From assembly GCA_035530615.1 (NCBI GenBank), contig DATKUL010000002.1:620001-684000 (forward strand): a stretch of DNA of 64,000 nucleotides, in the 5' to 3' direction. This stretch comes from Candidatus Paceibacterota bacterium. Lineage in GTDB: Bacteria > Actinomycetota > Actinomycetes > Nanopelagicales > Nanopelagicaceae. The notes under the pieces were generated by a model. The model searched no databases. It saw only the letters and a program-made list of their open reading frames with translations, and was not told where the DNA came from. The translations under genes and the position numbers were made by a program. Shown in pieces: positions 6,747 through 8,917 of this stretch; position 1 is the first letter of the stretch, and every line of letters begins with the position of its first letter.

Positions 6747-7355
6747 TTAACGCTCAGGCACAGCGCTTGGTGAAATGACGGCCAGGGCCACTTCCTTCAT
6801 GCTCATCCGCCGATCCATGGCGGCCCGTTGAATCCAAGAGAAAGCTTCCGGTTCGCTCAGGTTAAGTGCTGCCATCAGAATTCCCTTTGCCCGATCAATG
6901 AGTTTGCGCGTTTCCAAGCGCTCCTGTAAATCTGCCACTTCACTTGCCAGCGACGTCATCTGCTTATGCCGACTCATCGCAATTTCCATCGCCGGTATGA
7001 GGTCTGTGACTGAAAATGGTTTCACGACATAGGCCATGACACCAGCATCGCGAGCGCGCTCCACCAACTCCTTCTGACTAAAGGCGGTGAGCATCAGAAC
7101 TGGCGCGATGGCGATGATCTCTTCTGCAGCCGAGATTCCATCCAGCACCGGCATTTTCACGTCCAGGATGGCCAGGTCAGGTCGGTTCTCCTTGACCAGG
7201 TCAATTGCCTCTTGACCGTTACATGCTTGACCAACAACCTGGTAACCCGCTTCGGTGAGCATTTCGACAAGATCCATTCGGATAATGGCCTCGTCTTCAG
7301 CGACGACAATGCGTGCACCCTTAACTTCTGAAGATGTGGCCTGCGAAAATGTCAT
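6747..7355 (-). CDS. pdtaR: ANTAR-domain response regulator (PdtaR-like)
   Basis: The 202-aa protein joins a receiver domain (about residues 14-125, phosphoacceptor Asp65 in AILDVKMP, Thr90, Lys112 in VVKPFS) to an RNA-binding ANTAR domain (about 130-192: helices with DRAKGILMAALNLSEPEAF and WIQRAAMDRRMSM). Such regulators bind paired hairpins in nascent RNA and prevent termination when phosphorylated. The domain order and the place beside pyk match mycobacterial PdtaR; its kinase PdtaS is not in this window. The start codon lies one base after a tRNA gene, so no ribosome binding site can exist on a processed message. No alternative ATG, GTG or TTG occurs before the receiver domain. Confidence 0.9.
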   Translation of the reverse strand: MTFSQATSSEVKGARIVVAEDEAIIRMDLVEMLTEAGYQVVGQACNGQEAIDLVKENRPDLAILDVKMPVLDGISAAEEIIAIAPVLMLTAFSQKELVERARDAGVMAYVVKPFSVTDLIPAMEIAMSRHKQMTSLASEVADLQERLETRKLIDRAKGILMAALNLSEPEAFSWIQRAAMDRRMSMKEVALAVISPSAVPER

Positions 7356-7356
7356 G

Positions 7357-7429
7357 TGCCCCGAGTCGGATTCGAACCGACACTATGCAGTGTTTGAGAC
7401 TGCCCTCTCTACCGTTGGAGTACCGAGGC
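7357..7429 (-). tRNA. tRNA with anticodon CAA (Leu codon UUG) but class I shape
   Basis: The 73-nt sequence folds as a standard cloverleaf: acceptor GCCTCGG/TCGGGGC (two G-U pairs), U8, D-stem CTC/GAG with a C-A mismatch at 13-22, anticodon stem GCAGT/ACTGC with loop CTCAAAC (U33, anticodon CAA), T-stem GTCGG/CCGAC with loop TTCGAAT, and discriminator A73. The variable region is only five bases (ATAGT), whereas bacterial tRNA-Leu normally carries a long variable arm. CCA is not encoded. D-loop bases AACGGTAG keep the GG pair. The tRNA identity is therefore uncertain although the anticodon reads a leucine codon. It is transcribed towards the ANTAR gene. Confidence 0.85.
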
Positions 7430-7438
7430 GCGCCCCAT

Positions 7439-7444
7439 AGTCTA
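7439..7444 (-). promoter_or_regulatory. -10 box for the tRNA/ANTAR unit
   Basis: TAGACT on the minus strand ends 9 nt before the first base of the tRNA, so transcription should begin almost at its 5' end. It is located in the 48-bp gap after pyk. Confidence 0.45.
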
Positions 7445-7477: not shown

Positions 7478-8917
7478 TTAGCGATATGCCGGGGCAATTC
7501 CACCAACCGCATCGCCTACGCGGTGTACGCGCATCGCATTAGTGGATCCCGGAATTCCCGGCGGTGCTCCTGCCACAATCATGACAAACTCTCCGGATTG
7601 GGCTCGTCCAGAATCAAGCAATACTGCGTCAATCTGCTTCACCATTTCATCGGTCGTGCTGACGATTGGGGCAAGGAGCGACTCAACACCCCACGTGAGA
7701 GCCATGCGATTATAAGTACCGATATCTGGTGTTACAGCCAAAATCGGAATTCGAGACCGCAGTCTCGCCATACGTCGTGCCGAATCGCCGCTCTTGGTAA
7801 AAGCCACTAAGAATTTTGCGTTCAGAGTTTCGCCCACTTCGGCCGCTGCGCGAGTGATCGCTCCGCCCTTTGTCTTTGGAGAATGAAGGAGTCCGTGAAT
7901 CCGGTCAAGACCGCCTTCCTCAGTCCTTTCAATAATGCGTGCCATTGTTTGAACTGCCTCAATGGGAAATTCCCCCACACTTGTCTCACCAGAGAGCATG
8001 AGCGCATCAGCACCGTCTAAAACTGCGTTAGCGCAATCGGTGGCTTCGGCGCGCGTCGGACGGGAATTGGAAATCATAGAATCGAGCATCTGGGTAGCAA
8101 CGATGACCGGCTTGGCTGATTCGCGGGCAAGTTCGACACAGCGCTTCTGAACGAGTGGTACATCCTCGATTGGAAGTTCGACTCCCAAATCGCCACGTGC
8201 AACCATAATTCCATCGAAGGCGTCAATAATGGCCTCAAGATTTGCAACCGCTTGTGGCTTTTCAATTTTTGCGATGACCGGAACGCGTATCCCAACTTCG
8301 TCCATGATCTTGTGGACTCCGACAATGTCGTCGGCACTTCGAACAAATGAGAGAGCAATGAAATCTGCTCCAGCCTTCAATCCCCAGCGCAGGTCATCCT
8401 TGTCTTTCTCGGAAAGCGCAGGCACGGAGACCGCCACACCAGGCAGATTGATACCTTTATTATTACTCACCATCCCCGGTTCGATGACTCTGGTCACAAC
8501 GTCATTGCCTTTTACTTCCACAACCTCCACAGTGACTTTCCCGTCATCAATGAGAATCCGGTCTCCCGGCTTGCAATCTCCTGAAAGGCCCTTATAGGTC
8601 GTACCGACTCGCTCCTTTGTCCCATCAACTTCATCCGTTGTAATCGTAAAGAGGTCTCCCCGGGAAAGTTCGTGTGGTCCGTCTAAAAAGCGAGCCAGGC
8701 GAATTTTCGGTCCCTGCAAGTCCACCAATATGGCCACGGCTTCGCCATGCTCCAACGCGGCCATTCTGACCATGTCAAGGCGGGCTTGGTGCTCCTCATA
8801 ACTACCGTGAGAAAGATTGAGCCGCGCCATGTTCATTCCGGCGGAGATTAATGCACGAACTTTCTCCGGAGACTCAACAGCAGGACCCATCGTGCAAACT
8901 ATCTTTGCTCTACGCAT
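7478..8917 (-). CDS. pyk: Pyruvate kinase
   Basis: Pyruvate kinase converts phosphoenolpyruvate and ADP to pyruvate and ATP, the last step of glycolysis. The 479-aa product has the usual (beta/alpha)8 barrel with inserted B domain: substrate loop MNMARLNLSHG near residues 28-38, the signature KIEKPQAVANLEAI, GIMVARGDLGVE and VIVATQMLDSMI. The C-terminal domain is present and of normal size. ATG 8917 has AAGG 7 nt upstream, and the gene starts 9 nt after gltD, so it can be read from the glutamate synthase message. Confidence 0.97.
   Translation of the reverse strand: MRRAKIVCTMGPAVESPEKVRALISAGMNMARLNLSHGSYEEHQARLDMVRMAALEHGEAVAILVDLQGPKIRLARFLDGPHELSRGDLFTITTDEVDGTKERVGTTYKGLSGDCKPGDRILIDDGKVTVEVVEVKGNDVVTRVIEPGMVSNNKGINLPGVAVSVPALSEKDKDDLRWGLKAGADFIALSFVRSADDIVGVHKIMDEVGIRVPVIAKIEKPQAVANLEAIIDAFDGIMVARGDLGVELPIEDVPLVQKRCVELARESAKPVIVATQMLDSMISNSRPTRAEATDCANAVLDGADALMLSGETSVGEFPIEAVQTMARIIERTEEGGLDRIHGLLHSPKTKGGAITRAAAEVGETLNAKFLVAFTKSGDSARRMARLRSRIPILAVTPDIGTYNRMALTWGVESLLAPIVSTTDEMVKQIDAVLLDSGRAQSGEFVMIVAGAPPGIPGSTNAMRVHRVGDAVGGIAPAYR

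Follow-up and report, generated by a model that had tools for sequence, protein, structure and literature searches.

Short-armed UUR leucine tRNAs in Actinomycetes and a one-base junction between tRNA-Leu(CAA) and pdtaR in Nanopelagicaceae

The long variable arm of tRNA-Leu is described in tRNA identity reviews as universal except in animal mitochondria, and a review of 2023 states the opposite of a missing arm in this tRNA. For the E. coli leucyl-tRNA synthetase (LeuRS), leucine identity is carried by A73, A15-U48, G18G19 and A20a together with D/T-loop contacts and not by the long arm, and tRNA-Leu variants truncated to remove that arm remain active (PMC9976931). The premise of the preliminary description of this DNA, that in many species LeuRS recognition of tRNA-Leu depends on the long arm, thus fails for the best-studied enzyme. 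In Mycobacterium tuberculosis, leuV (CAA) and leuX (TAA) are tabulated at 74 bp each, the missing arm unremarked, and the CAA tRNA is transcribed and i6A-modified by MiaA in vitro (PMC9336784). Only Leu-2, -3 and -5 of this species are named as having long variable loops (PMC11541572), leaving by implication two leucine tRNAs without one. A search of the literature, with most subscription journals outside its reach, found no description of a short-armed bacterial tRNA-Leu. The missing arm is partly visible in existing annotation such as the 74-bp M. tuberculosis genes.

A second set of described systems concerns the 3' end of tRNAs. RNA maps of Propionibacterium acnes (PMC3848588) and Streptomyces coelicolor (PMC4681348) place a cut between C74 and C75 of CCA-encoding tRNAs, while the CCA-less tRNAs of S. 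coelicolor are cut a few nucleotides downstream (PMC4681348). Leaderless mRNAs starting with AUG or GUG are common in actinobacteria, and in animal mitochondria tRNAs abut coding genes and punctuate the transcript. In the window (the whole stretch of 64,000 nucleotides analysed here), it is very probable that a tRNA-Leu(CAA) lacking the long arm is a working decoder of UUG, charged by the single ordinary LeuRS of the genome; the tRNA gene was inverted within the family so that it abuts pdtaR.

A leucine tRNA with a five-base variable region

The tRNA-Leu(CAA) gene, of 73 nt and without encoded CCA, occupies positions 7357-7429 of the minus strand, a strand that the preliminary description did not name. 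ARAGORN called it at 7356-7429 on that strand, in agreement with the leucine anticodon first reported, and Rfam RF00005 covers 7357-7429 over the full model with 52.1 bits (cut-off 29, E 2.6e-8); U8, U33, the T-loop and A73 were borne out as previously described. The anticodon CAA (tRNA positions 34-36; 7394-7396, minus strand) lies in the loop CUCAAAC. The variable region AUAGU (tRNA positions 44-48; 7382-7386, minus strand) has five bases only, against the 10 nt or more of a class II variable arm, and its U48 faces A15. The D-arm core (7408-7420, minus strand) reads C10-C13, A14 A15, G18 G19, U20 A20a and A22, with a stem of three pairs (10-25 C-G, 11-24 U-A and 12-23 C-G), 13/22 (C/A) unpaired and A20a inserted. 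A D-arm of this build belongs to class II tRNA-Leu, and the genome's own class II tRNA-Leu have it. In spite of the five-base variable region the body is not a plain class I cloverleaf, which corrects the preliminary description. All elements reported for leucine identity in E. coli are present. Compared with class II bacterial tRNA-Leu, of E. coli type or from the CUN set of the same genome, A73, A15, G18G19, A20a and the three-pair D-stem are common to both, whereas the long stem-loop is replaced by the five bases. The plus strand, opposite to the tRNA, was folded as a single sequence and gave a z of -1.0; as this is no signal, the tRNA call rests on covariance score and conservation.

Conservation is strong. 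The tRNA was read in 20/20 loci of the genus, 19 of them identical and one (L013) with a single substitution, whereas the protein genes on either side have diverged. With BLASTN it was present in 46/60 relatives, spanning the family and reaching into the class, and all the relatives fetched gave a Leu(CAA) call and a short variable region. The first impression of a functional and not a decayed gene was therefore upheld, and of the two observations named at the outset as able to overturn it, a pseudogene-like covariance score and lack of conservation, neither was made.

In order to follow the short form further, one genome per species was searched with a pattern whose sole fixed elements are GGYAGA, the anticodon loop, U48 and the T-loop. 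The matches listed came mainly from actinomycetes (Mycobacterium, Nocardia, Streptomyces, Bifidobacterium, Corynebacterium, Micrococcales and Nanopelagicales), with a few from Planctomycetota, Chloroflexaceae, Christensenellaceae and others. A15, A73 and the leucine D-stem are not demanded by this pattern, and 119 short UUR tRNAs from genomes had A15 in 119/119, A73 in 119/119 and the three-pair D-stem in 118/119. The window's tRNA shares the marks of these actinomycete tRNAs, namely a leucine-type D-arm with A20a, a variable region some 5 nt long with U48 as its last base, and A73, together with the pdtaR neighbour expected of a CAA member. Short Leu(UUR) tRNAs also lie on at least 120 viral-contig stretches (loci L129-L208 among them); like the window's tRNA they have this D-arm, U48, a variable region mostly of the form NNAGU and A73 (119/119), but they are carried by phages and their acceptor stems differ from it.

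A survey of the class, scored by match length and demanding C32, G52G53 and C61C62, by which some tRNAs are missed, covered both UUR tRNAs in 68 genomes. At least one short form occurred in 63/68: both tRNAs were short in 32, CAA was long and UAA short in 19, CAA was short and UAA long in 12, and both were long in the remaining 5. The 12 genomes with short CAA and long UAA include members of one family (f19) with genomes of 8-10 Mb, which we take to be Streptomyces, its UAA gene presumably being bldA. For the phylum's remaining classes, a hand count gave about 100 long CAA matches and about 10 short ones. UUR tRNA-Leu genes with a short arm are frequent throughout the class Actinomycetes, CAA and UAA being each long or short by lineage; what looks odd when one genome is read by itself is the normal condition among actinomycetes. 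For actinomycetes these data contradict the review's statement of a universal long arm, and these bacteria, M. tuberculosis included, appear to break the rule in their UUR tRNAs. The M. tuberculosis genes leuV and leuX have the anticodons and the short length seen in the window's genome, and the T1 fragment ACUCAAAACCCG (PMC9336784) agrees with the short CAA tRNA in one of the surveyed families. Long and short forms often occur within one family, a natural experiment on what LeuRS requires, and the short arm suggests why isotype-model annotation may flag such tRNAs.

Gene order and the one-base junction with pdtaR

Directly downstream of the tRNA on the minus strand lies a pdtaR-like gene (6747-7355; pdtaR in what follows), encoding a response regulator with a receiver (PF00072, 88.6 bits) and an ANTAR RNA-binding domain (PF03861, 80.7 bits). 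Its ATG (7355-7353) is preceded by a single C (7356, minus strand), which would be C74 of the tRNA, and no other in-frame ATG, GTG or TTG stands ahead of the RIVVAEDE motif. The upstream neighbour on the same strand is pyk, for pyruvate kinase (7478-8917; PF00224, 399 bits). A scan for sigma-70 consensus promoters upstream of the tRNA found no match; the comparison of relatives' upstream sequences, the only way in which it becomes visible, points to a probable -10 element, TAGACT (7439-7444, minus strand), 9 nt 5' of the tRNA and retained across most of the genus, from which the tRNA is probably transcribed.

The comparison of the pyk-adjacent tRNA across actinobacteria that had been proposed gave a conserved pyk/pdtaR neighbourhood. 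In nearly all actinomycete CAA loci pdtaR adjoins the tRNA; in most actinomycetes the two are divergent, the tRNA starting about 80-260 nt from pdtaR, and pyk, in the loci containing it, converges on the tRNA. Most of the Nanopelagicaceae-type family has the tRNA on the strand of pyk and pdtaR, which amounts to a local inversion, and two genera of the family (L056 and L058) retain the other orientation. In Nanopelagicaceae and kin, then, the tRNA gene was turned onto the strand of its neighbours so as to abut the pdtaR start.

Among the matches listed, 36 distinct loci with the new orientation and a readable pdtaR start region were fetched, and in 36/36 the start codon (35 ATG, 1 GTG) follows one base after A73, that base always being C, although the loci differ in how long the protein N-terminus is and in its sequence. 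No other in-frame start precedes the conserved receiver motif in 29/36, and a further in-frame start lies downstream in 7/36. One more same-strand locus (L319) has no C-ATG after A73; the rule is thus strong but, counted among the matches listed, may have exceptions. This junction, just outside the 73 nt to which the preliminary description was confined, is the more interesting part of the locus.

Given such a layout, a cut after C74 of tRNA-Leu(CAA) would separate that base from the A of AUG, and maturation of the tRNA may by analogy release a leaderless pdtaR mRNA. The position would coincide with the mapped cuts of P. acnes and S. coelicolor; the extrapolation is uncertain because those cuts are on CCA-encoding tRNAs, whereas the window's tRNA is CCA-less and the CCA-less tRNAs of S. 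coelicolor are cut farther downstream.

The same arrangement occurs elsewhere in the genome. The tRNA-Pro(GGG) gene (C2:511361-511434; L072) ends one C before the GTG of a PgsA-like gene, and the tRNA-Ala(UGC) gene (C3:40533-40605; L022) ends one C before the ATG of a cyclophilin gene. Several further cases lie behind other tRNAs in the family.

Across the family, among the matches listed, an ATG begins one base after position 73 in 34 cases, about half of them pdtaR, against a median near 9 at other offsets, making it about three to four times commoner there than at most others. For C-GTG after a tRNA end, 36 matches were found in 41 genomes, almost every one at a recognisable tRNA end, and 5 for the reversed control pattern. 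Since the matches share ancestry, the ATG counts come from the matches listed, and CCA-encoding tRNAs have C at base 74 on other grounds, this enrichment is suggestive but falls short of a formal test.

The chances are evenly balanced that, in actinobacteria of the Nanopelagicaceae type, several CCA-less tRNAs are each matured by one endonucleolytic cut after C74 that at once creates a leaderless mRNA starting exactly at AUG or GUG, namely those of pdtaR behind tRNA-Leu(CAA), of cyclophilin behind tRNA-Ala, of the PgsA-like gene behind tRNA-Pro and others. Less probable is an alternative that bears on the junction and not on the identity of the tRNA: a single inversion would have produced the junction by accident, and the start site or promoter of pdtaR would lie inside or downstream of the tRNA. 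One inversion would account for the shared junction, the 7 loci with a further start codon could begin there, and the GGGG or GAGG ending 3 bases before the ATG could serve as a weak Shine-Dalgarno site; the retention of the junction in all the fetched loci while the protein N-terminus varies, and its recurrence behind the tRNA-Ala, the tRNA-Pro and more tRNAs of the family, argue against an accident. If cleavage after C74 does operate, it would be a bacterial form of tRNA punctuation in which production of an ANTAR regulator is coupled to tRNA maturation. As in animal mitochondria, the tRNA lies directly beside a coding gene with no room for a leader; the present case differs in being bacterial and in the single C between the two. 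It offers a directly testable case in which tRNA maturation would yield a leaderless bacterial mRNA.

Decoding and charging of tRNA-Leu(CAA)

The genome is complete (100%; 2.16 Mb in three contigs), and its tRNAs were gathered by an Rfam family search, which returned 61 matches (60 above the cut-off), and by reading of the regions. Five leucine tRNAs were found: UAG, CAG and GAG for the CUN codons, of 82-85 nt and class II (L076, L090 and L092), and UAA and CAA, which measure 74-76 nt and have five bases each in the variable region. The CAA and UAA tRNAs are each the only one with their anticodon, so both UUR codons are served only by short-armed tRNAs; the class II tRNA-Leu(CAA) that it had been suggested to look for elsewhere in the genome, or a class II UAA counterpart, was not found among these matches. 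To establish what UUG means, gltB, pyk and pdtaR were set against homologs of less than 72% identity and the residues facing their UUG codons were counted. The commonest residue was leucine at 36/42 sites; leucine and made up 72% of 959 cells, UUG aligning with leucine as well as CUN codons do, and UUG accounts for 44/204 leucine codons in the three genes. The tRNA thus has both a leucine anticodon and a codon read as leucine, as an isoacceptor should.

One LeuRS is encoded (L429:1492-3990). The protein has 832 aa, a catalytic, an editing and an anticodon-binding domain, and a C-terminal tail that aligns to T. thermophilus LeuRS up to its end. No duplicate was found; judged by their length and position, the other TIGR00396 matches are probably ValRS, IleRS and MetRS. 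Relative to T. thermophilus LeuRS, the enzyme is without about 38 residues before KMSKS, the site of the leucine-specific insert, and the LeuRS profile matches of several relatives are interrupted at the same place.

Because UUG is leucine, one LeuRS is encoded and the leucine elements known from E. coli are all kept, this LeuRS is predicted to charge tRNA-Leu(CAA), to which it would add leucine through the kept contacts at A73, A15-U48, G18G19, A20a and the corner of the D- and T-loops. On this reading it is an ordinary decoder of UUG from which the long arm was presumably lost. The best alignment score to another tRNA of the genome is that to Leu(UAA), 24.5, barely above the 24.0 of an odd "Val(AAC)" copy, and with this margin plain similarity is no proof of descent.

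Three other identities were weighed. It is very improbable that the gene is only tRNA-like, with a non-translational role as decoy, amino acid donor or pdtaR regulator. The one-base junction to the gene of an RNA-binding ANTAR regulator would suit such a role; yet this is the sole CAA-anticodon tRNA of a genome in which UUG is common, and since most actinomycetes keep the tRNA beside pdtaR in opposite orientation, it is independent of the fusion. The non-translational role first envisaged is therefore unnecessary, although the tRNA may have a second role besides decoding. Still less credible is charging by another synthetase with UUG wholly or partly reassigned, for which one could invoke the class II form that tRNA-Leu has as a rule and, in the sequence, the missing arm and nothing else. 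The discriminator, A15-U48, G18G19 and A20a are all of tRNA-Leu kind, and reassignment was rejected on the prevalence of leucine at the UUG sites of gltB, pyk and pdtaR, on par with CUN; together with the lack of another CAA tRNA, this opposes the earlier suggestion of a different synthetase. A decaying pseudogene is the least plausible, for although 52.1 bits is below most tRNAs of the genome (best 75.3), the score lies well over the gathering cut-off, the gene is near-invariant in the genus and widely kept in relatives, there is no replacement gene in the genome, and thus neither low score nor loss of conservation nor a redundant copy marks it as decayed. Among the three readings initially offered, a special leucine tRNA fits best: tRNA-Leu(CAA) is almost certainly an ordinary decoder of unusual shape, a shape that is usual for its class.

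Other tRNA-like genes of the genome

Among ordinary chromosomal genes the genome holds three dispersed families of tRNA-like genes, each copy within a repeated non-coding unit of about 100-430 nt with similar flanks (70-89% identity). The acceptor, D and T arms are conserved and the anticodon stem-loop varies between copies. Copies of V1 lie at C3:446174, C2:780552, C3:313489, C2:534123 and C2:533677, those of V2 at C3:444971, C3:455986 and C2:925048, and those of V3 at C3:456368, C2:204086, C3:306868 and C2:813469. An Rfam match at C1:500807-500875, unread by ARAGORN, resembles a shortened tRNA-Pro copy. A further tRNA-like match of 127 nt (C2:536684-536810; L098), with 26.8 bits below the cut-off and likewise unread by ARAGORN, has a normal-looking T-arm and CCA end and a long insertion around the anticodon loop.
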